The translations under genes and the position numbers were made by a program. Shown here piece after piece: positions 1 to 16,962 of a stretch of 36,647 bases of DNA. Positions within the stretch are counted from its first letter, which is position 1; each line of letters starts with the position of its first letter. A model generated the notes under the pieces. That model worked only from the letters and a program-made list of their open reading frames with translations, ran no database searches and was not told the DNA's origin. The stretch is from an uncultured Chlorobiaceae bacterium (lineage in GTDB: Bacteria > Bacteroidota > Chlorobiia > Chlorobiales > Chlorobiaceae): positions 1-36,647 of the forward strand of contig CAIPMW010000008.1 of assembly GCA_903866255.1 (NCBI GenBank). The letters are read 5' to 3'.

Positions 1-991
1 AGGAAAAGGCAAACAGCTCAAACCTTGATCTGTCGTGCTCTTCAAACAGCCCCGCCATCAAAAAGGAGACCGGATGGTCATGAAAGTCTGCTGAATAGTA
101 ACCAATACGGATGGTATCACGACGGGTATGTTTGGCAAGAGCAGGAAGCGCGGGATTGGCCGGAAATTTTGCCTGTGTATAAATTTTCGCGGCCTGGTGC
201 TGTATCGAAAGAGAATCCACCCGGGCGAGAACACCAAATGGATGTGATACCTTTTCGCCACCCAGGATTTTTGAAATAAGGCTTTGACAATGAGCATCAC
301 TGCCACGCCAGTCGCACATCTTCATGTTTGCACCCAACCACATACCAAACAAAAAATCGCGATCAGGTTCCAAGGCAAGCGCCCGCTCATAACTCACGAC
401 AGCCTCTTCGTAGCGTTTCAAATCATGTAACGCAAGACCGCGATTATAGTGAACCTCTGTATAGTCCGGATTGAGAGCAAGAGCAGCATCATAACTCAAC
501 AGTGCCTCGCCATAACGCTCTAACTCTTGCAGCACCACACCCCGATTACAATATGGATCAACATAATCCGGGTTGATGATAATCGCTTTGTCATAACTCA
601 ACAATGCCTCATCATAACGCCTGAACTCCCGAAACACATTGCCAATATTGTTATATGCCTTCGCATGGTCGGGTTTTATCGCTGCTGCATGTTCATAACT
701 TGCAAGCGCCTCCTCATACCGCCTCAACGACATAAGGGCATTTCCGCGATTATAACATGCAGCGGGATTATCAGGGTTTACGGCAAGCGCCTTGTCATAG
801 CTCAACACCGCATCATGACAGCGACCAAGCTCCTGCAAGGCAAGGCCACGGTTATAGAGCAATCCGGCAAGATTCGGGTTCGTCGCAAGCCCCTCATCAC
901 ACAAGAGAAGAGCTTCTCCAAAATCTTTTCGCAACAAGGCCGTTGTTGACCGTTGCAGAAACGCCTCAGCCTGATTTACAAGATCAGCCAT
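1..991 (-). CDS. TPR / GT41 (OGT/SPINDLY-type) glycosyltransferase, 3' part outside window
   Basis: Read on the minus strand from the ATG at 991 and open to base 1, so only about 330 N-terminal residues are visible. About five 34-residue tetratricopeptide repeats come first, each with a YNRG...A...SYD.ALA.NPD pattern. A linker follows, then the start of the catalytic part: the segment IRIGYYSADFHDHPVSFLMA near the window edge is the typical opening of the Glyco_transf_41 (O-GlcNAc transferase/SPINDLY) domain. Family members transfer a sugar from a nucleotide-sugar to Ser/Thr (or, in the HMW1C branch, Asn) of cytoplasmic proteins. The start overlaps the end of the DUF4347/VCBS gene by 16 bp, so the two are probably co-transcribed and translationally coupled. 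That makes the adhesins the obvious candidate substrates (inference). No signal peptide is seen. The catalytic lysine and UDP-binding region lie beyond the window. Confidence 0.88.
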   Translation of the reverse strand, partial: MADLVNQAEAFLQRSTTALLRKDFGEALLLCDEGLATNPNLAGLLYNRGLALQELGRCHDAVLSYDKALAVNPDNPAACYNRGNALMSLRRYEEALASYEHAAAIKPDHAKAYNNIGNVFREFRRYDEALLSYDKAIIINPDYVDPYCNRGVVLQELERYGEALLSYDAALALNPDYTEVHYNRGLALHDLKRYEEAVVSYERALALEPDRDFLFGMWLGANMKMCDWRGSDAHCQSLISKILGGEKVSHPFGVLARVDSLSIQHQAAKIYTQAKFPANPALPALAKHTRRDTIRIGYYSADFHDHPVSFLMAGLFEEHDRSRFELFAFS

Positions 992-3900
992 GCAAGAAGG
1001 CCAAGTCCACCAACCCCGGCAAGAATAACTCCTGCACCACCACCGCTGCCACCATGATCTCCTGCATAAGGATCGGATCCGGTAGTTACAAAAGCTACAT
1101 CAGGAGTAGATGCGCTGTTCATGGATTCCGGTGTACCCAACTGGTCGGTGTAGCTTGCTGTTACAGAAATATTTTTGCCAACATCGGACGGCTGGAGCGT
1201 ATAGCTGCTCCCCGCAGCTCCGCTGATTGCCACGCCATCAGCACTCCAGAGGTAACTGATTGCGCCAAGACCATCGACATCAACAAGCGTGTTATGAGCT
1301 GCGAGCGTCTGACCCTGAGTTGCTGTACCGGTAATGGTTACAGCTCCATCCGGTGCATGGTTAAGCTGTGTTTGACCGGCAATTGGCACAAAGAGCTGCC
1401 CGACACCGCTTTCCTTGTCAAGAATTTGCTGATTAATCGTTGCGGCATCTGTGGTAATCAGTGTATTATTGTGCTGCAGCACAACCTGCACAACCTGTTC
1501 GGCCAGAGTTGTCTGCGCAAACATCTGGGCGCTGACCATCCTGACAAGCGAATCGGAGACATTGGCAACACCAGTTGACGCATTTAAAATAGAAGAAGTA
1601 ACCTGGCAAACAGCAGTTGCAATAGCATTGGCATTACTGGTTGTAACCGTCCCCGGGTCAAGAGTCGTTGCGGCAGACAGAATAACATCAGCAACAACTG
1701 TATTATCAGTAAGATTGAGAGGATTAGAAGTTGCCGTCGCAAGGCTTATCAGCTTGTCTGCAACGTTTTTTGCAATATCAGTTGTGGTGGTGCTGCCTGC
1801 ACCGCCAGCTTCAATGGCTTTTGCTGTAATCTCCATAAGCGTGGCAATCTGAAGCGCGGTACTCTGCACTTTCAAGGCCATGGCATCATTGGCGGTGCCA
1901 GTGGTCGAAAGTCCTGCCAGTGGATCGTATGTGGTAAAGTCCAATGCGGGATCAAGACCGAAGGCGGTTGCAACAATTGACGCACTGCTGCCAACAGAGC
2001 CAAGAAGAGTGGTCAGCGGATTAACCACCGAGGAACCGGCAGGTGCGGAGTAACTGCCGGTAAATGGTTTTCCTGTTGAAATATCAACAGTACCCCCTGC
2101 AGGATTGGCCGTAAGACGAAGAGTACCTGAACCGGTTAGTCCACTGAACCGGCCGTTACTATCGGTCAATGTCCACGATTCCCCTTCGGAGGCATCGTAA
2201 CTGCTGTTGCCATTAAGATCGTTCCAATCGCGCACACCATCATTATCGGTATCAGTCCAGACCAGTGCGTGAGCCAGATAACCATCCTGGGCAACACCCG
2301 GGACAAGCGTCACGGTGGCTGTAGGCTGGCTGCTGACACTCTCATGCACACCTCCGACATCGGTATAATTCGCCTTTACTGTAATCGTCTTGCCAACTTC
2401 CGATTGCCCCACAATCAGTGAGTTCCCGTTCGCTCCTGCGATATCAACTCCTGCTGCCTGCCACTGATAACTGATACCACCCAATCCATCTGCATCAGCG
2501 AGAGTATTGGCTGCGGTCAGTGTGGCGCCCTGCATCGCCTCGCCGGCAATAGTCACTCCTCCTGTCGGCAAGTCGTTCTGGCCAATAAACGACACCTTTA
2601 CAGCGTGCGTTGTGCCGCCGGCAGTCGTAACCGTAAACGACTCTGTTGCTGTCGGAGTGGTTCCACCAAACACCTGAAGCTTGCTGTTATCTGCCGTGTA
2701 AACCCAATTGCCACCGGCATCTATGCTGAACGATCCGTAACTGCCTGCAAAACCTGTTTGTGCAGTCACGGTGGCCGGACTGTCAACGTCGCTCACAATC
2801 AGCGTGCCGCTCTTCACATAACTGCCACTATCCTCCGTCACACTCGCGGTGTCCGTCCCGGAAAAGGTGGCAGCATCGTTCACACCAGTCAGCGTCACCT
2901 CAATGTTATGGGTTGTGCTGTCGGCAGTTGTAATCATAAACGACTCTGTTGCTGTCAGGGTGATGCCACCCAGGGGCTGAAGCCTGGTGTTGTCTGCTGT
3001 GTAACTCCAATGGCCACCGGCATCGATGCTGAACGATCCGTAACTGCCTTCAACACCTGTTTGGGCAATCACGGTGGCCGGACTGTCAACGTCGCTCACA
3101 ACCAGCGTGCCACTCTTCACATAACTGCCACTATCCTCCGTCACACTCGCCGTGTCCGAACCGGAAAAAGTGGCTGCATCGTTCACTCCAGTCAGCGTCA
3201 CCTCAATGTTATGTGTTGTGCTGTCAACAGTGGTAATCGTAAACGACTCTGTTGCTGTCAGGGTAGTTCCGCCCAGCGTCTGAAGCTTGCTGTTGTCTGC
3301 CGTGTAACTCCACAGACCATCAGCATCGATGCTGAACGACCCGTAACTGCCTGCAACACCTGTTTGTGCAATCACGGTGGCCGGACTGTCAACGTCGCTC
3401 ACAACCAGCGTGCCGCTCTCCACAGAACTGCCACTATCCTCCGTAACACTCGCCATGTCCATCCCGGAAAAGGTCGCAGGTTGACTCTTTTTGACAATGG
3501 TAACAGTTTCCATCTGCTGCACACTGGCACCGTAGCTGTCAGTGATGGAGTAGCTGAGAACTATGGTGGAACTTCCATGAACAGGAATATCACTATAGGC
3601 CGTATTGGAGGGATCAACAGTCAGTGTCGTGCCTGAAAGAGTGAATCCAGAAGGCAGATCCAGTCCGGAATTGCCCGTCGGCACACCATCCACACTGCAG
3701 ACAATATTGCTGACATTCAGCATGTCACCTTCACTGTCACTCGCATGTAACAATAAATCAAGATGATAAGGGTCAGCGCCATTATTGGTGATACTACTCT
3801 CTGCAACTGAAACTGTAGGCGCATCATTGGTGCCGGTCATCGACACCGCAATACGTTCAGAGGTCAACCCGTCAACCGTTACTGCTGTAATAGTGTCGGT

Positions 3901-5100
3901 ATAAACAGCACCCTGAACAAATTCATTGTGCGCGCTATTGGCCGTGTAGCTCCACCCTGTTGAGGATATGGTAAAAAGACCATAACCGCTTGAACCTGGA
4001 ACAGTTGCCTGAGGAACAAAGGTATGGGCAGCAGTAACAGAAGAGGAGGTCACCAGAGTACCGGAGGCGGAAAGTACCGCATCAGTCTCCTTAAGGTTGC
4101 ATAATACTGGCAACGCTCCCAAAGAGACAGGTGAATCATCGTTATAAAAATTTGTATTCCAGACAATTGCCGTACTGCATCCCTCGCTGTTGCCACCAGT
4201 AAAGCTGATAGTGTCAAGCAGAAGGTCGGTGCTGCTTGAGATTGCTGGCTTTGAAAAAGCAAAAGCTGTTAATCGCACAATACCCGACGTATAAGGATTA
4301 TACATCAAGCTCCATGTCTTTATTGCGGGATTAGGTGTATAATCAGGTGTGTAGTCGGGATCAATTGCCAATGCAGCAGTTGCCAATGCAGCATCATAGG
4401 TAAGCACCACACCAAAGTTATTGGTAACAGTACCGGCTTTCAACCAAACCTGAACATCCACACCTGTCGCAGTATCAACATTTTTCAGCTCAAGAACGGA
4501 ATCCTGAAGCGTATACGGATAAAGGTGAACAGAACCAAACGGGACAGAAATGCTATCGACCCCGGACGACATCACATCAGGCGCCCAACAACCACCAAGG
4601 CTCTCTGCTCCAACAAGAGTGCTGAATGCGGTAACAGCAGAGCCATAAGCCCGGGTAATACGGTCAACGAACTGCCTGCCCTTTGCTCCTGAGCCTGTCA
4701 GGCATGACCAAAAATGAAAGGATGGAACAGCAACCATCTTCGTGGCTTCATCAGGAGCATGGCGGGTAAAATCGGCATGGCCAAGCGATCGGCCTCCCAG
4801 AGTGATACTCCCCGGCTTACCATGACCCAGAAAATGAAGCTGTTCATAACCATGCAGCAACGCCTTCCTCAGCATCTCCAGGGGGTTATCATCGGCAGTC
4901 ACACGCCAAAGGTCTATGTCCGGCCTTAAATGATCAAGCAATACCTCTCCATCGGCTATACCTGCATCCGCAATAAGAAGCTGCCGACCTCTCCGAAAAA
5001 AGCTGTCGATCGCTGCTGTTTGATCTCTTTTCAACAGCGCCAGCTCTTCAGATACCATGAGGTGAGGTGCAACAGCAACATGAGTCAACCGAATATCCAT
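976..5100 (-). CDS. DUF4347 / VCBS-repeat large surface protein (1374 aa)
   Basis: A 1374-residue modular protein without an N-terminal signal peptide. Residues about 8-175 match DUF4347, a CHAT/caspase-like domain: the HFLGHGKPG segment puts a His at 93 and WSCLTG puts a Cys at 133, the spacing expected for a His/Cys dyad. A VCBS-type repeat follows at about 345-425, then a cadherin-like segment to about 535, and three nearly identical VCBS repeats of about 101 residues (540-840). Next come an Ig-like module, a TDTDNDGVRDWND calcium-loop segment near 930, an Ala/Thr-rich helical stretch, and a second Ig-like module. The last 25 residues are Gly-rich then hydrophobic (ending GLGLLAWLIL) with no basic tail. 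The likely role is a secreted or surface-attached adhesin, possibly with autoproteolytic or peptidase activity (inference). The Shine-Dalgarno is weak. The gene follows the 5365-9834 paralog by 264 bp and overlaps the downstream GT41 gene. Confidence 0.9.
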   Translation of the reverse strand: MDIRLTHVAVAPHLMVSEELALLKRDQTAAIDSFFRRGRQLLIADAGIADGEVLLDHLRPDIDLWRVTADDNPLEMLRKALLHGYEQLHFLGHGKPGSITLGGRSLGHADFTRHAPDEATKMVAVPSFHFWSCLTGSGAKGRQFVDRITRAYGSAVTAFSTLVGAESLGGCWAPDVMSSGVDSISVPFGSVHLYPYTLQDSVLELKNVDTATGVDVQVWLKAGTVTNNFGVVLTYDAALATAALAIDPDYTPDYTPNPAIKTWSLMYNPYTSGIVRLTAFAFSKPAISSSTDLLLDTISFTGGNSEGCSTAIVWNTNFYNDDSPVSLGALPVLCNLKETDAVLSASGTLVTSSSVTAAHTFVPQATVPGSSGYGLFTISSTGWSYTANSAHNEFVQGAVYTDTITAVTVDGLTSERIAVSMTGTNDAPTVSVAESSITNNGADPYHLDLLLHASDSEGDMLNVSNIVCSVDGVPTGNSGLDLPSGFTLSGTTLTVDPSNTAYSDIPVHGSSTIVLSYSITDSYGASVQQMETVTIVKKSQPATFSGMDMASVTEDSGSSVESGTLVVSDVDSPATVIAQTGVAGSYGSFSIDADGLWSYTADNSKLQTLGGTTLTATESFTITTVDSTTHNIEVTLTGVNDAATFSGSDTASVTEDSGSYVKSGTLVVSDVDSPATVIAQTGVEGSYGSFSIDAGGHWSYTADNTRLQPLGGITLTATESFMITTADSTTHNIEVTLTGVNDAATFSGTDTASVTEDSGSYVKSGTLIVSDVDSPATVTAQTGFAGSYGSFSIDAGGNWVYTADNSKLQVFGGTTPTATESFTVTTAGGTTHAVKVSFIGQNDLPTGGVTIAGEAMQGATLTAANTLADADGLGGISYQWQAAGVDIAGANGNSLIVGQSEVGKTITVKANYTDVGGVHESVSSQPTATVTLVPGVAQDGYLAHALVWTDTDNDGVRDWNDLNGNSSYDASEGESWTLTDSNGRFSGLTGSGTLRLTANPAGGTVDISTGKPFTGSYSAPAGSSVVNPLTTLLGSVGSSASIVATAFGLDPALDFTTYDPLAGLSTTGTANDAMALKVQSTALQIATLMEITAKAIEAGGAGSTTTTDIAKNVADKLISLATATSNPLNLTDNTVVADVILSAATTLDPGTVTTSNANAIATAVCQVTSSILNASTGVANVSDSLVRMVSAQMFAQTTLAEQVVQVVLQHNNTLITTDAATINQQILDKESGVGQLFVPIAGQTQLNHAPDGAVTITGTATQGQTLAAHNTLVDVDGLGAISYLWSADGVAISGAAGSSYTLQPSDVGKNISVTASYTDQLGTPESMNSASTPDVAFVTTGSDPYAGDHGGSGGGAGVILAGVGGLGLLAWLIL
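2580..3480 (-). repeat. three tandem VCBS repeat units, about 303 bp each
   Basis: Three in-frame copies of a roughly 303-bp unit inside the DUF4347 gene. The landmark ACTGCCACTATCCTCCGT recurs near 2820, 3122 and 3425. Copies differ at scattered positions and remain mostly identical at DNA level, which suggests recent unequal exchange. Each encodes one VCBS domain starting TFSG.D.ASVTEDSGS. Confidence 0.9.
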
Positions 5101-5272
5101 TGTCGTTCAGATAAAAAAATTAGTCGGACTATAAACAAGCACTCCTTTCCAGACATCATCATCAACAGCGCAAAAGCAGGAGGAATTAAATGCAATATCG
5201 TAAAAAGAAATTTACCAAAAACAGCATTGCATACAAGAAGGTGGTATAACACCAATACTCGACGTAAAACGC

Positions 5273-5317
5273 GCAAACATCAATAACCAGCAAGAACGCC
5301 TGATTATTGATGCTTGC
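5273..5317. repeat. inverted repeat between adhesin genes
   Basis: The arms 5273-5286 and 5304-5317 (GCAA-A/G-CATCAATAA and its complement) are complementary over 14 bp with one mismatch and a 17-nt loop. It lies in the 264-bp gap between the 5365-9834 gene's stop and the start of the DUF4347 gene. It lacks a T-tract, so it is a weak terminator candidate; it could be a transcript-processing or attenuating hairpin. Nothing else was recognised in this gap. Confidence 0.5.
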
Positions 5318-5364
5318 CACAAAAGAGAACAGGAGATCATCTTTTCACTGTGCCACAACCCTGA

Positions 5365-8300
5365 TTATCCGGCCTGCGACACTGGCGCCATCCAGCTCCC
5401 GTTCACATCCCCCAGCACAACGCCAACCAACTGAAGATCGGTCTCTTCGTGGAGGTAGAAGGCCACAGGCGAGCTATCATTATTGGTTGATGCCAAAATG
5501 GCATCCTGGTTGATCTCATCCTGGTTACCTAACTCATCCTGGGGTACACTGCCATTAACAAAAACCCAACCACCCTGATATTTGGAAGAAGGGTTATGCA
5601 GTGCCATCTGCTGTATAATACTAATATCACGAGAGTTAACCTCGCCATCACCATTCACGTCAGCAGCGAATAACTGGTAGGCATTCAGACCATCCCCTTC
5701 ACTGGAGTAATGATGGTGGCTGCTGTGATCCTCACTCAGACTGCCATTTGGATCAAGGCCGGTTGCAATTCTCTGGGCAGCCCAGACATCAATCGCCGTC
5801 ACCGTACCAGCAGGAATGTTGTCACCAAGGCGGTCGGCGCTCAGAACATGCACACCCTGACTGATATCCTCAAAAGTCGCTTCGCCCTTCTCGTCAGTAA
5901 CAGCGCTATCCACCTTCGTATCAAGGGTTCCAGCTTCAGTCAATGGTATGGCAACATTATCAACACCATACTCGCCACCTGTCAACACAACAGGGACATC
6001 ATCTCCTTGATAGATAGTTCTGATAACACCAAGCAGTACTGAGCCACTATCCAATGCCTTGTGATCCATATAATCCAAAGCATTCTCATAATCCTTGACT
6101 GTCAGATTAAAATCCCCAAGCGTCTTGTGATAACTGATGTCTGCGAGATAATCCTGGGGAACGAGAACACCAACCTGCTTCTCCGTGAAAGGCGGCGCAC
6201 TATTGACAAACTGTGCATAATCCTCACTTGACAGACTATTGACATAACCCAGAAATTTTATAGACGATTCATAATCACCGACTGTTACATAATCACCAGG
6301 TGCCAGATGATTTTGGAGATAGCCAGCTAAATCATCCAGTGACAGTTGATGGATAAAATTAAAATAATCGTAAGGAGTCAGATTATCCAGCGGCGGTTGA
6401 TTATTGACATACGCAAGGTAATCCAAAGCATTCAAATAATCCGCCGTAGTTATATCAAAGTCACCAGGAGTTGTATGATTTACGGCAACAACCGTCAGCC
6501 TGCCTGCGTCTGCATTAGTGGCCTCTGAGGAAGAGGTATCAACTCCCCAGCCACAGCTATCCTCACCGAGAATATCTACCCATTCCGGCGATTTTCCAGC
6601 AACTGTTTCTGCGGCAAACTCAAGCTGAATACTGTTGATATCAGAACCTGCTCCCGGCAACTTCCACACCTCATACTCAACATACTGAACATGCTCATGC
6701 TCTCTGTTCGCATCGGAAGAACCAGGCTCTACCTGTTGATCTGTATACCTGACGTTATCAGAAATATGCATGTTTCTAAATTCAATGAGGCCATTGCCAA
6801 TAGAGCCAGCCCTCTCAAGATTCACACTCTCAACAGGATCACCTGGTGCAATTGCTGCTCCAACATCCGGCGTTCCCAGCGCCTCGCGCCCCTTGTTCCA
6901 GAAATTTACCGATTCAGTAAAGGTATAGGCATCATCGTGACCGTAAATTGTCACATGAACATCCTCGTGATCTGTTTTTAAACCATCTGTAACGGCTAAA
7001 GTGAACGTTGCTTCTACCTTATCACCAGCCTTGAGATAGTCAAGATGTGACTGGTCAACCGTTAAATTCCAGGTGATTACGCCATCGTTACCGTTGTTCA
7101 AGGAGGGGGTTACAGTAAATCCCTGCACAATACTGTCATACATCTCCTTGAGAGCATCCCCGCCCACGACACGGTCCTCGCCAGAGGAAAACGATGAATG
7201 TTGAACATCGTATCCACTAACATCCCATTTAGAAACCGAAACTACAGGTCTGTTGGCAGTATCAGGGTCAGTAAAATGAATCCTGCCTGAAACACTATGA
7301 ACGGCCGTGCCAACATCCCCACTCTCACCTTCATCAATCTGCCCATACAATGAATCCTTTTTAAGAGAGGAGAACTCCGGTGCATCATTCACTCCAGTCA
7401 CAGTTATCGTGAGCGTTCCACTGTCTGTTGCGCTCTGATCATCGGTTACCGTAAAGGTCGCCACAACGTCCTCGGTTTCTCCCTGAGAGAGGTGATCGTA
7501 GGCAGAGTCACTCGCATTAAAGCGGTAACTGCCACCAGTGGCTATTGTCAAACCGTCCAGTGTGCCGTCAAGCGCATAGCTCGCTGAATGATTGTCATCA
7601 ACGTCACTTGATGTCAATGAGCCGGAAACGCTTCTCCCCTCTTTCACCGAATTTGTAGCATCGGTCGCTGACGGATCATCGTTGACACCTGTCACCGTTA
7701 TCGTCAGCGTTCCACTGCCTGTTGCGCTCTGATCATCGGTTACCGTAAAGGTTGCCACAACATCCGTTGTCGCTCCGGCAGAAAGGTGGTCGTAGGCAGA
7801 GTCACTTGCATCAAAGCTGTAGCTGCCATCAGTGGCTATTGTCAAGCCGGCGACTGTGCCGTCAAGCACATAGCTCGCTGAATGATTGTCATCATTATCG
7901 CCACTCGATGTCAACGTGCCGGTAGCGCTGCTTCCCTCTGTCGCATCATTTGTAGCATCAGTCCCTGACGGAGCATCATTAACACCTGTCACCGTTATCG
8001 TCAGCGTTCCACTGCCAGTACCACTGGCACTGTCGGTCACCGTAAAGGTTGCCACAACATCCGTAGTCGCTCCTTCCGAAAGGTGATCGTAGGCAGAGTC
8101 ACCCGCATCAAAACTGAAGGCACCATCGGTGTATATTGTCAAGCCAGCTATATCCGTACCATCCAGCACAAACGTATATGTATCAGGAGGGACAGGCTCC
8201 GTATAATTCAGCGGGCCTGTTACCATATCTCCCTCCGACACATCAGCCGTTGTTACCGGCGGAATCTTAATGTGAATTATCGCCTGGGTGGTTGGCCCGT

Positions 8301-9834
8301 CCACATCACCCAGTGACGTACCAACAAAATTCACGACACGGTCAGTCTGATCAATATTATCTTGAGATTCGGTGTTAAGATAAGTTATGTGATCAAGATA
8401 CATTGAAAGAACCGAAGGGTCAAACCCCTCCGCTTCAACAGTTCCTGTAAAGGTAATTGAGTGCTTATCTGCATCAAAGGCAACATCATAACCAACATCG
8501 AAAGGACCATCATAGGCCAAACTTTCTGATGTTCCATCAGGGGTATTGGTCAATGTCACCGTCAAACTCTTGACATTCACACCCGAAAGGTATGAATAAT
8601 ATGGCATAAGATTCGCATTGCTACTATCAGCAAGAGCTACTGCGGTACCTCCTTCATTAAAATCAACCGCAATATCACCACTTGACGTGTTGCTCCCTCC
8701 AAGGTCAACAGCGGGAAGCCAATCTATGGCAATAGTGGTAACAGCCCCGCCAAAATAATAGGACGATTGGGGTGGTATCGTTGCTATTGTAGAGCCCGAT
8801 TCATTCACAAAGGTTATGTTCACCTGTGAACCGTCAGAGGGCATCGATGTTAAAGGGCCACCAGCCAGAAAGTGCTTATTGTCAGCGGAAACCGCTACAA
8901 GCACCTCACCGCTATCCACACCATTAACATGAATACGCGCCCCAAGGGGGACTGGTAAAGAATTATAGAGTATTGAGGTATTTGATGTAAACGATGCCGT
9001 ATTCGATTGGAGGCCATAAACATCGGTCACGGATATATGGACATAGCGAACATTACTATTCTGATCAAGAACATCCGTATCATTCTGGTAGCGAAGCGTT
9101 GCAATCGCGGCTTCATAGTCTGCCAGCGTACCCAATCCATTGAGTGTCACATACTTTATCGCGTGTGAAGAGACGTCAACATCACTTGTGTCTGAAGAAA
9201 TGGCAATATCTCCAAGAGTACCTTTATAGGTATATGAGTCAGCCACCATATCCAATGTAGAGGTCAAATGCTCAGTATCTCCTATATTCACTCCCGACAA
9301 GGTAATCCTGGCTACAGTAAGGTACTCCGCCGTAAGATCAACATCGGTAATAACAAAATCATCAGCCACCAGTTTCAGTGGATCTCCGAGTGGATGGTAC
9401 GACACCGCATAATCATTGTTACCCGCCGCGTCTGATAGCCCTCCGGCATCCACAACAGGAGCATCGTTAGAGGGGACAAGCGTCATTGCTACTTGTGTTG
9501 GTGTAATAACTGGTACTGCACCCGAAAACGAGGAATGGGTAAGAATATCATCGCCAAGCAAGCCATTGGGCGAAGAGAGATATCCAACTCGATCAACAAC
9601 ACTCAGCCAAGCTGTCAATTCAGCATTGGTGGCACCTGTAAGTGTTAAAGTACTTGTGCCAACACCGCTAACCGCTACACCTCCAGAAGATCCAGGTACC
9701 CGGAACGTGCCGTCTACCACGCTCAGTACAAGCTTCGTAGCTCCTGCACCAAGATAATTCAGAAGAGAATTCGGAAGAGTACCCGTTGCCAACGACAAGC
9801 GATGATCTTCAGTAAACGAAATATTTATAGCCAT
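5365..9834 (-). CDS. VCBS/cadherin-like adhesin with dockerin-like C-terminus (1489 aa)
   Basis: A 1489-residue acidic protein starting at an ATG preceded by GGGGAAAG. It has no signal peptide, which is compatible with type I export. The N-terminus (to about 130) is a cadherin-like 'tandem' module ending in NDAPVVDAGG, followed by a DYEAAI...VHISVTD module. Three VCBS repeats of about 98 residues occupy about 530-820 (GTLTITVTGVNDAP signatures). Then comes a long beta-rich region, three DY-rich repeats (about 1120-1265), and a dockerin-like end: TAIDVWAAQRIATG, then ADVNGDGEVNSRD (an EF-hand-type Ca loop), and a closing GVVLGDVNGSW. It is homologous along its length to the neighbour at 10026-13286, sharing both ends, so the pair arose by duplication. 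The likely role is a calcium-stabilised extracellular adhesin or matrix protein; no enzymatic motif was seen. Confidence 0.88.
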   Translation of the reverse strand: MAINISFTEDHRLSLATGTLPNSLLNYLGAGATKLVLSVVDGTFRVPGSSGGVAVSGVGTSTLTLTGATNAELTAWLSVVDRVGYLSSPNGLLGDDILTHSSFSGAVPVITPTQVAMTLVPSNDAPVVDAGGLSDAAGNNDYAVSYHPLGDPLKLVADDFVITDVDLTAEYLTVARITLSGVNIGDTEHLTSTLDMVADSYTYKGTLGDIAISSDTSDVDVSSHAIKYVTLNGLGTLADYEAAIATLRYQNDTDVLDQNSNVRYVHISVTDVYGLQSNTASFTSNTSILYNSLPVPLGARIHVNGVDSGEVLVAVSADNKHFLAGGPLTSMPSDGSQVNITFVNESGSTIATIPPQSSYYFGGAVTTIAIDWLPAVDLGGSNTSSGDIAVDFNEGGTAVALADSSNANLMPYYSYLSGVNVKSLTVTLTNTPDGTSESLAYDGPFDVGYDVAFDADKHSITFTGTVEAEGFDPSVLSMYLDHITYLNTESQDNIDQTDRVVNFVGTSLGDVDGPTTQAIIHIKIPPVTTADVSEGDMVTGPLNYTEPVPPDTYTFVLDGTDIAGLTIYTDGAFSFDAGDSAYDHLSEGATTDVVATFTVTDSASGTGSGTLTITVTGVNDAPSGTDATNDATEGSSATGTLTSSGDNDDNHSASYVLDGTVAGLTIATDGSYSFDASDSAYDHLSAGATTDVVATFTVTDDQSATGSGTLTITVTGVNDDPSATDATNSVKEGRSVSGSLTSSDVDDNHSASYALDGTLDGLTIATGGSYRFNASDSAYDHLSQGETEDVVATFTVTDDQSATDSGTLTITVTGVNDAPEFSSLKKDSLYGQIDEGESGDVGTAVHSVSGRIHFTDPDTANRPVVSVSKWDVSGYDVQHSSFSSGEDRVVGGDALKEMYDSIVQGFTVTPSLNNGNDGVITWNLTVDQSHLDYLKAGDKVEATFTLAVTDGLKTDHEDVHVTIYGHDDAYTFTESVNFWNKGREALGTPDVGAAIAPGDPVESVNLERAGSIGNGLIEFRNMHISDNVRYTDQQVEPGSSDANREHEHVQYVEYEVWKLPGAGSDINSIQLEFAAETVAGKSPEWVDILGEDSCGWGVDTSSSEATNADAGRLTVVAVNHTTPGDFDITTADYLNALDYLAYVNNQPPLDNLTPYDYFNFIHQLSLDDLAGYLQNHLAPGDYVTVGDYESSIKFLGYVNSLSSEDYAQFVNSAPPFTEKQVGVLVPQDYLADISYHKTLGDFNLTVKDYENALDYMDHKALDSGSVLLGVIRTIYQGDDVPVVLTGGEYGVDNVAIPLTEAGTLDTKVDSAVTDEKGEATFEDISQGVHVLSADRLGDNIPAGTVTAIDVWAAQRIATGLDPNGSLSEDHSSHHHYSSEGDGLNAYQLFAADVNGDGEVNSRDISIIQQMALHNPSSKYQGGWVFVNGSVPQDELGNQDEINQDAILASTNNDSSPVAFYLHEETDLQLVGVVLGDVNGSWMAPVSQAG
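6045..6475 (-). repeat. DY-rich internal protein repeat (three degenerate copies)
   Basis: Within the 5365-9834 gene, three related segments occur: DFDITTADYLNALDYLAYVN, GDYVTVGDYESSIKFLGYVN and GDFNLTVKDYENALDYMDH, separated by variable DY/DL-rich spacers. The pattern is visible only at protein level. The paralog at 10026-13286 lacks the block and has a short calcium-loop segment at the same place. Confidence 0.7.
7385..8240 (-). repeat. three VCBS repeat units, about 294 bp period
   Basis: In-frame units within the 5365-9834 gene. GATCATCGGTTACCGTAAAG occurs at about 7437 and 7731, exactly 294 bp apart, and a diverged version at about 8030. The middle copy is very close at DNA level to the units at 11640-12120 in the neighbouring gene. 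Confidence 0.88.
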
Positions 9835-10025
9835 AAGTCTTTCCCCTTTGCTTATTTAAGTAGTTACACAACAAATATCATTGCAAAAAAAGCGTCACAA
9901 GCATTCCAACGGAAATGTTCAAAAAAAATCACCATCACTCCACAGCAGCGCTTGCTTTTTCTTTTGGCAGGCGATATTTGTCATAATTTCAAAGCACTGT
10001 ATGTTCATGCAAATAACCTCGCCTG

Positions 10026-13000
10026 TCAGGCCACTTCCGGCAAAGACCAACTACCATTAACATCACCAAGAACAACTCCAATCACAGGGACCTCTGTCGG
10101 TTCATGAGAAGAGAGCCATGGAGAATCTGCCGATGTCGACACCCCGGATATTTTGTCATTGTCATCTCCCGGTTTTGAAGAGTGCCCTGGAGAATCTGCC
10201 GATGTTGACAACCCTAAAACAGCATCAGTATTGATATTCAATTCCCCGTACTTCTGCCAGCAATCAATATTATATAGTTCTTTATCGGGATCCAGACGCC
10301 CGTCAACAAATACCCAGCCACTCGTTTCCTCATGAAGCGCCATCTTCCATATAGCCCAAACATCATGGCTATCAACATTGCCATCCTGGTTAACATCGGC
10401 AGCAAAAACCTGGTACCCATTCAAATCCGTGCCGTCACCATTGGGACTGTACCCTGAGGCCATCCTCTGGGCACACCAGACATCAATCGCCGTAACTGTG
10501 CCAGAAGAGATATCGTCTGCAGATTTTTCAGCAGTCAGCAGTTGATTATGACCCTGCATAATGTCAGTGGCAAAAGTAACAGCGCCTTCGTCACTGCTGA
10601 CAGCACCCTGTACGGTAACAACAAGAGGGTTGTCAGCAACGACCACCGGTATTGCGAGGTTATTGACTCCAAACTCGGCAGATGTTAATTGTACCGTACC
10701 AGTATCGCCCGTAAAGGTGGTTTTCAGTTTGCCCAAATAATAGTCGTCACCACCAGACCAGTAATCTATAACACCATCACCATTATAATCTACACCATCG
10801 CCTTGATGACCCAAATCATGCCGCTGACTGGACGCAACGACCGTCAGATGTCCTGTATCCTTTCCAAGAAAAGAATCAACAAACCAGCCCTCTTCGTCGA
10901 CCTTGCCTTCACTCCATCCGGTTATGGTGTTTCCATCGCCGGCATCAAATTCAAGTTGAATACTGTTGATCCCTGATTCTGCTCCATGTAATTTCCATAC
11001 TTCATAAGTGGCGGTGGTAACGTTGGTCTCACAATCAGTACTCAGTTTAATGTTTCTGAATTCAATGGAAGAATTTTCTGCAAAGCTGATATTGTGAACT
11101 GAAACCCCTTCAACTGGCGCACCACCATTCCAGAACGTTATTGATTCTGTTACCGCATACGCATCGTCCTTACCTGCAATGGTTACCTCTACTGGCTGAT
11201 GAACAGTATCAATTCCATCCGATACTTTGATATCGAATGTTGCATACAATTCATCGCCACCCTGGAGAAGGTCTATCGCAGACTGGGCAACGGTCAAGTC
11301 CCAGGTGACCATGTTGTTTGCGTCAAGTGTTACAGTAAAACCGTGGGCAACGGCATCAAACAAATCTCCCAGAGCCGAGTGAATACTGTTCTCATCAGAA
11401 GCAGAATTAACATGAGACATTCTTTCCGCCACATGTACCTTGAATGTGACATTGGAATCCGGAGAAAAAGCTACCCTGTCTTCTATTGATATGCCAGACG
11501 ATACAGACAGGGCATCTCCATCAGCGTCACTAGCGTGAATTGTTCCTGAAATGGAATGAGAGGCCGTTCCAACGTCACCGCTCTCACCTTCATAAATGGT
11601 GCCTGCAACTGAATCACCGTCATGAATCGCAATCACAGGGGCATCATTGACACCCGTCACCGTTATCGTCAGCGTTCCAGCGCCTGTTGCGCTCTGATCA
11701 TCGGTTACCGTAAAGGTTGCCACAACATCCGTTGTCGCTCCGGCAGAAAGATGATCGTAGGCAGAGTCACTCGCATCAAAGTTGTAGCTGCCGTCAGTTC
11801 CTATGGTCAAGCCAGCTACTACGCCCTGAAGCGCATAGCTCGCCGAATGATTATCATCAGGGTCACTTGAGGTCAATGTACCTGTACTACTTACGCCCTC
11901 TGTAGCCGAATTTGTAGCATCAGTCCCTGACGGAGCATCATTGACACCCGTCACCGTTATCGTCAGCGTTCCAGCGTCTGTTGCGCTCTGATCATCGGTT
12001 ACCGTAAAGGTTGCCACAACATCCGTTGTCGCTCCGGCAGAAAGATGATCGTAGGCAGAGTCACTCGCATCAAAGTTGTAGCTGCCGTCAGTTCCTATGG
12101 TCAAGCCGGCTACTGAGTGATCCCACGAATATCTGGTCGAATTGGGGTTAAAGCCTATGGAAGTCAACGTACTGTCCAGCGAGTTACCCTCCGTCACCAG
12201 GCTGGTTTTGGGAACCGCTACCGGCACCCACTGCACTCCAATGGTAGTTGTTGCCAACACCGATCCATACTGGATTATTGTACCCCTGACCGTTGTATCA
12301 TTCTGAACATCATGAAATGTTACTGTGCAACCTTCAACAAACGCTGCCCCCAGCGGCCCACTGGCGAGGAAATGTAAACCATCGCTGCTTTTTCCCTCCA
12401 GTATCTGACCAGTATCGACATTATTGATATAAATTTTGCTTCCCAGAGGAATAGCGGGTTTTGGATTTAGCGCCGTGATGGAGGCTGAGTTAGACACGGC
12501 GCCAGACGCATCTGTTACAGAAATCTCAACGTGGCGTGAGGTGGTATTTTGAGCTGAATCTATACTGCTGTTGTTGTACACAATCGTTTTGAGCACACCT
12601 TCATAATCCGCAAGGGAAGCGTTACCGGTTAATGTCAACTGCGTCTTGTCTGCATTGGCGGTAACAGTTATACTGCCAATCGGAACTCCCAACGTACCGG
12701 AGGCAAGAGAAAGGCCCTCTGAAGAGGCAAGAGGATTACTTGTCAACGGAGCCTTCAATACGACTGTGGCCCCCTGGAGAGTGGAGCCGGTGTCAACATC
12801 AGTGATGGTAAAATCACTCGCAACAACTCTCACGGGATCATTAACAGGATTAAATGTAACCGCATAATTATTCCCCAATGTTCCCGGACCACCAGCATCC
12901 ACAACCGGTGCATCGTTAACACCTGTCGTAACATTAATTACGCCTACAGTGCCGGAATTTACAGCAACAGCTCCATTAAACGATGCATAAGAGAGTGTTG

Positions 13001-13286
13001 CCGGGGCGGCAGTGGCAGAGGGAACAAAATAGACAAGTTGCTGGGCAAGCCAGGGAGCCAGCGCACCTGCAACTTTTTCTGTGAGCGTCATGGTAGAATA
13101 TCCGGTCAGCGCATCAACCACAATCGCAACACCTACGTTATTCGGTGTCAAAGCTAATGGAATAGAGGCGGTCAAAGAACCTTCCGTCACACGCAAAACG
13201 AGCTTATTTGCACCACTGGCGAGCAACAATGCAAGATCGGTAAGAACAAGCTTCCGATCTTCATTAACACTAATAGGATACGGCAT
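10026..13286 (-). CDS. VCBS/cadherin-like adhesin with dockerin-like C-terminus, paralog (1086 aa)
   Basis: A 1086-residue paralog of the 5365-9834 product, starting at an ATG behind AAGGGG. Both share the N-terminal module (ISVNEDRKL versus ISFTEDHRL), the NDAPVVDAGG junction, the IPLG.KI.(N)VDTG segment, VCBS repeats, the F.N.G...G..V segment and the dockerin-like end (TAIDVWCAQRMASG, ADVNQDGNVDSHD, GVVLGDVNGSW). It has two complete VCBS repeats (about 390-550) against three in the neighbour. Instead of DY repeats it carries DYNGDGVIDYWSGGDD, which looks like an extra Ca-binding loop. Near the C-terminus a STSADSP segment is duplicated. There is no signal peptide; type I secretion is inferred. 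It is the first gene of the minus-strand surface cluster, 191 bp upstream of its paralog, so its 461-bp upstream region probably holds the cluster's main promoter. Confidence 0.88.
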   Translation of the reverse strand: MPYPISVNEDRKLVLTDLALLLASGANKLVLRVTEGSLTASIPLALTPNNVGVAIVVDALTGYSTMTLTEKVAGALAPWLAQQLVYFVPSATAAPATLSYASFNGAVAVNSGTVGVINVTTGVNDAPVVDAGGPGTLGNNYAVTFNPVNDPVRVVASDFTITDVDTGSTLQGATVVLKAPLTSNPLASSEGLSLASGTLGVPIGSITVTANADKTQLTLTGNASLADYEGVLKTIVYNNSSIDSAQNTTSRHVEISVTDASGAVSNSASITALNPKPAIPLGSKIYINNVDTGQILEGKSSDGLHFLASGPLGAAFVEGCTVTFHDVQNDTTVRGTIIQYGSVLATTTIGVQWVPVAVPKTSLVTEGNSLDSTLTSIGFNPNSTRYSWDHSVAGLTIGTDGSYNFDASDSAYDHLSAGATTDVVATFTVTDDQSATDAGTLTITVTGVNDAPSGTDATNSATEGVSSTGTLTSSDPDDNHSASYALQGVVAGLTIGTDGSYNFDASDSAYDHLSAGATTDVVATFTVTDDQSATGAGTLTITVTGVNDAPVIAIHDGDSVAGTIYEGESGDVGTASHSISGTIHASDADGDALSVSSGISIEDRVAFSPDSNVTFKVHVAERMSHVNSASDENSIHSALGDLFDAVAHGFTVTLDANNMVTWDLTVAQSAIDLLQGGDELYATFDIKVSDGIDTVHQPVEVTIAGKDDAYAVTESITFWNGGAPVEGVSVHNISFAENSSIEFRNIKLSTDCETNVTTATYEVWKLHGAESGINSIQLEFDAGDGNTITGWSEGKVDEEGWFVDSFLGKDTGHLTVVASSQRHDLGHQGDGVDYNGDGVIDYWSGGDDYYLGKLKTTFTGDTGTVQLTSAEFGVNNLAIPVVVADNPLVVTVQGAVSSDEGAVTFATDIMQGHNQLLTAEKSADDISSGTVTAIDVWCAQRMASGYSPNGDGTDLNGYQVFAADVNQDGNVDSHDVWAIWKMALHEETSGWVFVDGRLDPDKELYNIDCWQKYGELNINTDAVLGLSTSADSPGHSSKPGDDNDKISGVSTSADSPWLSSHEPTEVPVIGVVLGDVNGSWSLPEVA
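10118..10215 (-). repeat. short duplication, about 70 bp period
   Basis: GGAGAATCTGCCGATGT recurs at about 10119 and 10190, with GACA-CCC following both. It encodes the doubled STSADSP segment in the linker of the dockerin-like tail, and looks like a recent local tandem duplication. Confidence 0.8.
11640..12120 (-). repeat. two near-identical VCBS repeat units, 294 bp period
   Basis: Stretches of roughly 170 bp starting near 11650 and 11944 differ at only a few positions. GATCATCGGTTACC occurs 294 bp apart. The same sequence recurs, slightly diverged, at about 7690-7860 in the neighbouring gene, so exchange between the genes is likely. Confidence 0.9.
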
Positions 13287-13747: not shown

Positions 13748-14230
13748 ATGGCCACTTCAGAACTTCCCTCCGCCATGACATTCGCTCTCAAATTGCTCAG
13801 CCTGCGTAATCACAGCCACGATGAGCTTGAGCGGAAACTTATGAAAAAGGGATATACTGCGGAGAGAATCAGGCCCGTACTGGACAAGCTTACTACAGAG
13901 GGCATACTGGATGACAAGGTGTTCAGTATGGAGCTGATCAGAAGCCGCTCAAGACGAAAACCATCGGGAAAATTGGCACTCTGTTCCGAGCTTAAAAAAA
14001 GAGGGATTTCCAACACCATCATTGAAGAGCTTCTTCATGAGTATCAAAGCGTCGAACTATGCCATAAAGCCGCAGAAAAAAAAATCAGTTCACTGCATGG
14101 AGGAGCTAAAAACGAGCAAAGGAAAAAGCTTGAACTCTTCCTCCGTAACCGGGGATTTGGATGGCAGGAGATTCAGGTGGTACTCAAGCGTTTTTTTGAG
14201 TATGATCAGCATGATAACGACCCCTGTTAA
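13748..14230 (+). CDS. recX: RecX family regulatory protein
   Basis: 160 residues, the usual RecX length. The first helical repeat has the [20 protein letters not shown] pattern, followed by [16 protein letters not shown] and a [20 protein letters not shown] repeat, the tandem three-helix arrangement of RecX. RecX binds RecA filaments and moderates recombinase and co-protease activity in the cytoplasm. recA is not adjacent. The gene stands alone on the plus strand, converging with pyrH: their stop codons overlap (recX TAA at 14228-14230, pyrH TAA at 14227-14229). No clear Shine-Dalgarno precedes the ATG. Confidence 0.9.
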
Positions 14231-14946
14231 GGAAGCTCCCCGTGAACAAGTGAACCAATTTTTTCGCCGCGCAGCAGCCTGGTAAAGTTCCCCTTTTCGT
14301 TCATGTTCATGATCATGATCGGCAAGGCATTCTCGCGACAAAGCGTTATTGCCGTCATATCCATAACCCGCAGGTTTTTCCGTATGACATCCAGATAAGA
14401 GATATCCGAAAAAAAATGAGCATTTGAATTTTTTTCAGGATCGGAGTCGTAGATACCATCAACCCTGGTACCTTTAACAATAATATCAGCCTGAATCTCA
14501 ATGGCCCTCAGAGAGGCTGCCGTATCTGTTGTAAAATATGGGTTGCCTGTTCCTGCCCCGAAAATGACAACACGCCCTTTTTCAAGATGACGAACAGCGC
14601 GACGCCTGATATACGGCTCGGCCATCTGCTCCATTTTTATGGCTGTCTGAAGACGGGTAAATACCCCTTTGCGCTCCAGTGCATCCTGAAAAGCCAATGA
14701 ATTGATCACTGTTGCCAGCATACCCATATAGTCGGCCTGAACACGATCCATATTAGCCGCAGCCTCCGACATACCCCGGAAAATATTGCCTCCGCCAATA
14801 ACCAGAGCAATCTGAGCGCCCATATCCCTCGCCTCTTTTATCTCCTCCGCATAACGCTCCAGCATTTCAGAATTAATACCATAGCCATCATCACCGGCCA
14901 GTGCTTCACCACTCAATTTCAGCAGGACTCGCTTGTACTGGAGCAT
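14227..14946 (-). CDS. pyrH: UMP kinase
   Basis: 239 residues, full length for bacterial UMP kinase of the amino-acid-kinase fold; it phosphorylates UMP to UDP with ATP in the cytoplasm. Visible landmarks are [12 protein letters not shown] (phosphate loop), [28 protein letters not shown] (the UMP-binding stretch) and the [13 protein letters not shown] segment. The ATG at 14946 is preceded by AAGGATAATGAT. It lies downstream of tsf, as in many genomes, but a strong hairpin terminator at 15100-15131 and about 190 bp separate them, so pyrH probably has its own promoter. Confidence 0.97.
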
Positions 14947-15011
14947 ATCATTATCCTTACAAACAAATGGTTAACAAGAAACAAGCATCAAGAAAAGTAT
15001 CAATCAACAAA

Positions 15012-15055
15012 CCCTGCAACAGAGCAACAGGGTATGAATTCATGTTCATGAATTC
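15012..15055. promoter_or_regulatory. palindromes upstream of pyrH
   Basis: GAATTCATG at 15036-15044 and CATGAATTC at 15047-15055 form a perfect inverted repeat with a 2-nt centre. A weaker CCCTG/CAGGG pair (15012-15016, 15028-15032) lies next to it, nearer pyrH. They sit 65-110 bp upstream of the pyrH start and could be an operator or a leader hairpin; function unknown. Confidence 0.4.
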
Positions 15056-15099
15056 CTTCACAAACCAGAGCTTCGAGGAATATGTCCTCAATCGATTAA

Positions 15100-15131
15100 A
15101 AAAAAAGCCTCGAACAACGAGGCTTTTTTCT
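15100..15131 (-). terminator. rho-independent terminator of rpsB-tsf (bidirectional)
   Basis: An 8-bp stem AAGCCTCG/CGAGGCTT with a 5-nt loop, flanked by A and T runs on both sides. It sits just past the tsf stop on the minus strand. Confidence 0.9.
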
Positions 15132-15133
15132 TC

Positions 15134-16000
15134 TTATTCTCCTAACTGATAACGAACAAATCCAATCACATCAACCTTCGCCAGATGCTTTTTTCGACAG
15201 TCGCCCAGCACACCTGAGACCTTTGCCTTGTCATCCTTGATAAAAGCCTGCTCCGTGAGCACAACGTCCTGATAATATTTCTCAAGCCTGCCAAGAACAA
15301 TCCTGTCGACAAACTCCTCCTTTTTACCCTGTTCGAGAGCCTGCTGACGATAGATTTCGGACTCTTTTGCAATATAATCGGCTGGCACACAGGAGCGATC
15401 AACAACAATCGGCGCGGCAGCGGCTACCTGCATGGCAAGATCTTTTGCCAAATCCTTTATAACCTCTGGTTTATCAGTATTGATATGAATAACAGCGCCA
15501 AGCTTTGCGCCAGGATGAATGTAACCTTCGACAAGCCCATCAGGGGCATCATAAAAAGCAAGGCGTCTGAGATTAATCTTTTCACCCAGTTTGCCGGTCA
15601 TGGTCTTCATGGCATCATCCACAGTTTCGCCGCTATAAGCCTCTCCAAGCGTGAGCGCCAGAAGCGCTTCGGTCGAAGTGGTGCGGTTGGCAAGTGCAAG
15701 ATCGCCAAGCGCTGCCGTAAAGCCTGTGAAATCCTCGCCACGTGCAACAAAATCAGTCTCACAGTTCAATTCAAGAATAACAGCACTCTTGTGATCTGCT
15801 GTTACCTTGATAATGACCATCCCCTCTTTGGCATCCCTGTCTGCACGCTTGGCCGCCAAAGCTGCACCTTTCTTGCGCAGATAATCGATAGCCTGCTCAA
15901 TATCCCCACCTGTTTCATCAAGGGCTTTCTTGCAATCCATCATCCCTGCACCTGTTATATCACGAAGATTTTTTACATCTTTTGCTGAAGTCTGGCTCAT
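15134..16000 (-). CDS. tsf: Elongation factor Ts
   Basis: 288 residues, normal for EF-Ts, the nucleotide exchange factor that regenerates EF-Tu-GTP. The N-terminal UBA-like domain carries [19 protein letters not shown] and the [16 protein letters not shown] signature. The core has [18 protein letters not shown] and a C-terminal helix region ending in [11 protein letters not shown]. It follows rpsB by 33 bp on the same strand, the standard rpsB-tsf pairing, and is closed by the hairpin at 15100-15131. Confidence 0.98.
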
Positions 16001-16033
16001 TGAAATTTTACTCTTATTATTATGTAACGGTGA

Positions 16034-16789
16034 TTATTCGCTGATCTCCTCTTTTTCGACATCCACCTCCACTTCATCCATCTCGGCAAGCACCTCATTT
16101 TCAACCTTCAGCTCACGTGCCTTGATAACGGTATCAGCAACGGCCTTGACCATAAGCTGAATTGAACGAATGGCATCATCATTTGCCGGAATAACATAAT
16201 CGACCAACTCAGGATCGCAGTTGGTATCAACCATCGCGATAATCGGAATACCGAGCGAACGAGCCTCTTTGATAGCAATATGCTCTTTCTTGATATCAAC
16301 GATAAAGAGTGCTGCCGGAAGCCTTGTCATCGTGGCAATGCCGCCAAGAATCCTCATAAGCTTCTCCTTCTCTCGACCAAGCATGAGACGTTCTTTCTTG
16401 GTAATCATATCATAAGTGCCGTCAGTAGCCATCCTGTCAATAGAGTTCATGCGTCTGATGCTTTGACGGATAGTCTGGAAGTTGGTGAGCATACCGCCCA
16501 GCCAGCGTTCACAAACATAGGGCATACCTGCACGCCCGGCCTGCTCGGCAATGATATGCTTGGCCTGTTTTTTGGTGCCTACAAACATGATCTCCCTGCC
16601 AGTCTGCGCAATAGCTTCGAGAGCCTTGAGCGCATCATCGGCAAGCACAACAGTCTTCTGGAGATCAATAATGTGGACACCGTTTTTTTCCATAAAAATG
16701 TACGGCTTCATTTTCGGACACCAGCGACGTGCCAGGTGACCAAAGTGAACTCCTGCACGGAGGAGCTCTTCAAGCTGAAAATGTGACAT
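16034..16789 (-). CDS. rpsB: 30S ribosomal protein S2
   Basis: 251 residues from the ATG at 16789, which is preceded by AAAGGAAAG. The reading frame is open for 35 more codons upstream, but S2 proteins begin with this [18 protein letters not shown] segment, so the upstream extension is leader. Landmarks include [29 protein letters not shown], and [20 protein letters not shown] near the C-terminus. An acidic tail ([13 protein letters not shown]) extends beyond the core. S2 binds the small subunit near S1 and commonly autoregulates rpsB-tsf. It lies between rpsI and tsf. Confidence 0.97.
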
Positions 16790-16962
16790 GGCGACTTTCC
16801 TTTTGTGATTTAGTTTTTCCTCTACCGTGACACTACTGACCGGTATCCGGCGCAGGGCGCCAGACACTTCCGGAAAGCTTCGTCTGAACTGCAATACTCA
16901 GACTGTCATGATATGTGACGTTGTGTTCTGAAATTGTACAATACAAACAAGAGTGCGCCAGA
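16790..16962 (-). promoter_or_regulatory. rpsB 5' leader with GC-rich hairpin
   Basis: A 173-nt gap between the rpsI stop and rpsB start. It contains a perfect GGCGC-AGG-GCGCC hairpin (16849-16861), flanked by CCGG-type elements (16840-16850 and about 16871-16875) that could pair further. The GC content contrasts with the neighbouring AT-rich sequence. A structured S2-responsive leader is possible by analogy with other rpsB genes; no known family was matched. Confidence 0.4.

Follow-up and report, generated by a model that had tools for sequence, protein, structure and literature searches.

The window, i.e. the whole stretch of 36,647 nucleotides that was analysed, starts at base 1 of contig C8 of an uncultured Chlorobiaceae genome (G000; 2.8 Mb, 117 contigs). 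The following features were located in its first part:

10026..13286, minus strand: VCBS/cadherin-like protein of 1086 aa (TIGR01965, E = 6.4e-23; Cadherin_4), with a dockerin-like C-terminal tail (...GDVNGSW...)
5365..9834, minus strand: VCBS/cadherin-like protein of 1489 aa (TIGR01965, E = 1.9e-30), with a dockerin-like tail
976..5100, minus strand: protein of 1374 aa with N-terminal DUF4347, VCBS repeats and a C-terminal DPY...GLLAWLIL tail
4522..4980, minus strand: DUF4347 domain, predicted clan-CD cysteine-peptidase fold (PF14252, alignment, model)
979..1158, minus strand: C-terminal DPY...LLAW tail of the 1374-aa protein, probable secretion or sorting signal
2..991, minus strand: start of a tandem TPR-GT41 gene (330 aa up to the contig edge, comprising TPRs and 44 residues from the beginning of the first GT41 domain)
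13748..14230, plus strand: recX, chromosomal border of the island (synteny with G003)
14227..16894, minus strand: pyrH, tsf and rpsB, conserved flank and anchor for the join of C8 to C87

Three large VCBS/cadherin-type open reading frames on the minus strand, followed by a TPR/GT41 gene, had been reported in the first-pass annotation and were found as described, the GT41 start codon lying over the stop of the 1374-aa adhesin gene in a 16-bp overlap (976-991). The intergenic gaps among the three VCBS genes measure 191 and 264 bp, and a terminator-like site was found in neither of them. A promoter scan was not informative, and the base composition of the island differs only slightly from that of the flanks. 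The cluster had also been described as ending in the GT41 gene: the gene is there, but this end is the contig edge, and what is predicted is a multi-module gene whose remainder lies on contig C87.

Profile search detected VCBS repeats (TIGR01965) in each of the three large proteins (E = 2e-70, 2e-30 and 6e-23), those of the 1374-aa protein forming four stretches (E = 2e-70). The 1489-aa and 1086-aa proteins are paralogues (59% identity over residues 610–1119), in which Dockerin_1 scored 26.3 bits (over the cut-off) and 21.3 bits (just under the cut-off of 22.9), respectively. Their dockerin-like tails recur at the ends of other large proteins in the genus, with no transporter tied to them. Ser and Thr together make up 20–24% of the three proteins, and a high content of these residues is common in repeat proteins of such kind, with GT41 nearby or not. 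As already noted from the window, the proteins appear to be devoid of signal peptides, a hydrophobic N-terminus being seen in none of the three by crude hydropathy; likewise, no TPS or haemagglutination domain was detected in them using Pfam and NCBIfam.

The DUF4347 domain (PF14252) comprises residues 41–193 of the 1374-aa protein (E = 9e-19). In an alignment of 30 sequences, His93 (His-Gly) was nearly invariant and Cys133 invariant. Comparison of an AlphaFold model (pLDDT 83) with CHAT/caspase structures using Foldseek gave a probability of 1.00, but at E-values of 3e-4 to 1e-3 and TM scores below 0.5. The domain looks like a predicted caspase-like clan-CD domain with a His-Gly/Cys dyad, and this putative peptidase may process its own adhesin. 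Co-localisation of DUF4347 with GT41 as a general rule was considered and rejected, the two being mostly on different contigs and rarely together; in one related genome (G014), 29 DUF4347 matches were counted.

Within the window, the GT41 match follows several TPRs and is limited to the initial ~44 residues of the domain (model positions 76–117); it scores 28 bits, the cut-off being 25. Relatives matching this fragment were Chlorobiaceae MAGs and some Proteobacteria. GT41 pieces in G000 are restricted to C8, with one orphan start, and C87, with one orphan end: there, an open frame of 2030 aa (C87:1-6094) opens with the final portion of a GT41 domain, with two complete TPR-GT41 modules after it. 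The module of the window was grouped with the two C87 modules in the tree (support 92/90 and 94/88).

The two contigs were related to each other via the flanking genes. In 10 of 12 other genomes searched, tsf and bchV share a strand and are separated by ~1.1 to 6.5 kb (different contigs in the remaining two, G054 and G048), and in G003 the order rpsB-tsf-pyrH-recX-bchV-SDR-DeoC-RuBisCO-like is contiguous with a recX-bchV gap of ~170 bp; G060 and G076 share the order from rpsB to bchV. In G000, rpsB-tsf-pyrH-recX is followed by the three VCBS genes, the GT41 start, the gap, the rest of GT41, a short ORF and bchV-SDR-DeoC-RuBisCO-like. The short ORF (133 aa; C87:6157-6558) has no match at the corresponding sites of G003, G046, G054, G060 and G076, and no other genes besides it, the three VCBS genes and GT41 were found in the recX-bchV interval of G000. 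By synteny, C8 is thus predicted to continue into C87 at the GT41 gene. Since tsf and bchV are neighbours in most relatives examined but split between C8 (tsf) and C87 (bchV) in G000, the VCBS genes, the GT41 start and C87:1-6094 are, on gene order, a single island that was inserted in the recX-bchV interval. The putative GT41 protein would have at least ~2590 aa (330 + ~231 + 2030 aa) and at least three TPR-GT41 modules, a lower bound as the gap between C8 and C87 is unsequenced.

One C87 module was aligned to human OGT, XcOGT and SPINDLY (E = 5e-129 to 2e-81). The best matches of the G000 enzyme were OGT, with XcOGT and SPINDLY also matched, and a TPR array is followed by the GT41 domain (PF13844). 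The catalytic His (NH motif) was present in 49/49 and the catalytic Lys (YKI) in 45/45 of the GT41 modules that cover these residues, most of the catalytic domain of the first G000 module falling into the C8-C87 gap. By its TPR-GT41 architecture and the conserved His and Lys motifs, the protein is classed as a predicted OGT/SPINDLY-type enzyme. XcOGT, Thermobaculum terrenum OGT and human OGT are likewise built of a TPR superhelix and a bilobal GT41 domain with aligned catalytic Lys/His motifs, but have one TPR-GT41 unit, whereas at least three are fused in G000, within an adhesin island. Caulobacter FlmG, a cytoplasmic TPR-containing flagellin glycosyltransferase dedicated to an exported surface protein, is similar as a dedicated cytoplasmic TPR transferase and differs by its flagellin substrate and single module. 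HMW1C of Haemophilus and Actinobacillus, which had been brought up as a parallel in the first-pass annotation, is a GT41-family enzyme modifying a large adhesin before export (PMC3012730, PMC3983070). It carries an AAD domain instead of TPRs (PMC3983070) and makes N-linked hexoses, and its partner HMW1 uses two-partner secretion. The parallel holds for function only: the G000 enzyme has TPRs in place of the AAD domain and partners without a TPS domain, and membership of the HMW1C group was rejected on these grounds.

G000 does have type I secretion genes, the search for which had been suggested earlier: an ABC-ABC-HlyD-TolC set found throughout the genus is located on C87, at a distance of ~100 kb from the island. 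The DPY...GLLAWLIL tail of the DUF4347 protein is shared by three other large G000 proteins (C37, C58 and C61), and 48 of 61 genomes of the genus gave some match, many of them weak, to a DPY...G-G-GLLAWxxL tail at E = 0.01. In G073, G018, G014 and G008, a large protein with a DPY...LA(W/F) tail is encoded directly upstream of ABC-ABC-HlyD-TolC; the one of G073 combines an N-terminal DUF4347 domain with the DPY tail. The tail is a possible type I secretion or sorting signal that has gone unrecognised, and the DUF4347 protein is probably a type I substrate, for which the tail common to the operon-adjacent proteins provides the best evidence.

GT41 genes with several modules were also found in other genomes of the genus. 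Complete ORFs of 3510 aa with four GT41 modules and of 2178 aa with three are located in G024 (C79 and C80, respectively), and further multi-module frames, all truncated, in G010, G002, G070, G020 and G071. In a 296-genome sample of the phylum (38 genomes with GT41), frames with several modules were confined to the genus of the window and other families had one GT41 per frame, both among the matches listed; the novelty of the tandem fusions is to be read within this sample of the phylum. The open-access literature searched yielded no paper that links type I secretion to GT41 or to O-GlcNAc transferase.

Because the island holds little besides adhesins and a multi-headed OGT, cytoplasmic glycosylation before type I export would be the most economical explanation. 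O-glycosylation of type I-secreted adhesins by a multi-module OGT-like enzyme, in the context of the island, is given a probability of roughly 0.55, on the basis of gene order, domain content and conserved motifs. The giant GT41 protein would act in the cytoplasm on unfolded VCBS proteins, its modules adding single sugars, O-linked on Ser/Thr, at many VCBS sites; repeated GT41 heads would suit repeated acceptors. Export of the VCBS proteins by type I secretion would come next, and the caspase-like domain of the DUF4347 protein may process the protein that carries it. Gene content and gene order, the borders of the island, the tandem modules with their conserved OGT residues and comparable pairings in relatives were observed; autoproteolysis, the route of secretion and the substrate, sugar and linkage of the transferase are what we infer here. 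A more specific version, a dedicated system in which several fused OGT-like modules sugar-coat repetitive type I adhesins, possibly with sites or sugars of their own for each module, and a caspase-like adhesin processor is included, is put forward tentatively, at somewhat less than even odds.

Adhesin adjacency could alternatively result from co-transfer or an insertion hotspot, the tandem GT41 protein being a general cytoplasmic modifier of the O-GlcNAc/O-fucose type or a TPR scaffold. The OGT of Thermobaculum terrenum is an example of an intracellular bacterial enzyme (PMC4683255), and GT41 genes in the genus are for the most part solitary, with housekeeping genes around them. Single-module GT41 genes are mostly located away from adhesins, among housekeeping or restriction genes, and the three-module gene of G024 (C80) has a restriction enzyme gene and others around it; conserved neighbours at other GT41 loci, as far as identified, are restriction enzymes, GlgE, SpoT, FtsK, purB, AAA and CobN. 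Tandem fusions, on the other hand, recur beside type I secretion/adhesin operons at a chromosomal place other than that of the G000 island: in G024, G010 and G070, genes for a large repeat protein, TolC, PPIase, ABC and HlyD are directly followed by tandem GT41. G012 has the same order up to a contig end within the first GT41 module, and in G020 tandem GT41 comes directly after the HlyD gene, at a contig end (the Pfam assignments of OEP (TolC), PPIC, cNMP/C39-like ABC and HlyD come from the G012 copies and were transferred to the other genomes by sequence clustering). G000 yielded neither a close match to the cNMP-type transporter nor one to the PPIase. The transporter operon also occurs without an adjacent GT41 gene (G042, G073, G008, G051, G064, G004 and G046); in G042, it is directly followed by the genes otherwise lying beyond GT41, which is therefore an optional addition. 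The occurrence of GT41 without adhesins in most relatives, named beforehand as an argument against the link, was accordingly observed in part, in the rare co-occurrence of DUF4347 and GT41, for most single-module genes and for transporter operons without GT41. The proposed pairing of an OGT/SPINDLY-type enzyme with non-TPS adhesins is upheld by gene order in the island and several relatives, but does not extend to most of the single-module genes. An association with adhesins is thus no general property of GT41 but is frequent for the fused form, the three-module gene of G024 (C80) being an exception, and the loci are phylogenetically dependent. As the G000 island contains almost nothing else and the GT41 start overlaps the adhesin stop, a general modifier is regarded as unlikely, if still worth considering.

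The main task of the GT41 protein may also be that of a TPR chaperone, holding the large adhesins in an unfolded state until export, while sugar transfer is minor or lost. HMW1C has been discussed as a possible chaperone (PMC3983070), the TPR arrays are long and the related operon includes a PPIase gene; the catalytic residues, however, are kept in every covering module and would not be needed by a pure chaperone, making this explanation improbable. Repeated GT41 genes do break many contigs in MAGs, but that their misassembly produced the multi-module gene is highly improbable, given two complete ORFs with start and stop, a DNA identity between modules of one ORF of mostly ~57–94% in 200-base windows, and modules 1 to 4 of G024 pairing one to one with those of G070 (tree support 100) in the two species, so that the architecture is inherited and not an assembly error.

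Giant RTX-type adhesins, Cag_0614 and Cag_0616, are encoded in genomic islands of the green sulfur bacterium Chlorobium chlorochromatii (PMC4053972). These are also very large repeat adhesins on islands, but far larger than those described here, and no word beginning with 'glycosyl' occurs in the main text of that paper (PMC4053972). By pairing repeat adhesins with a multi-module OGT, the G000 island points to an enzyme and to its likely substrates at once, so that the question can be put to a direct test. For intracellular OGT-like glycosylation in bacteria, few clear substrates are known.

Many MAG contigs of the genus end inside GT41 domains or genes (G010 C12/C189, G012 C91/C3, G060 C48/C3, G070 C71/C57 and others), and tandem GT41 genes are therefore probably under-counted in public genomes. 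Further arrangements were seen in G054, where a DUF4214 protein is followed by two GT41 genes, and in G014, where GT41 and DUF4915 genes occur with a giant DUF4347 protein. DUF4915-type genes follow GT41 in both G014 and G006 (L126, L150), one of the G014 copies having a GNAT acetyltransferase domain. Genes of nucleotide-sugar type, as judged by a look at their sequences, lie ~8 kb beyond the GT41 gene of G000 (L111, 14081-19999 on C87) and could possibly supply a donor.
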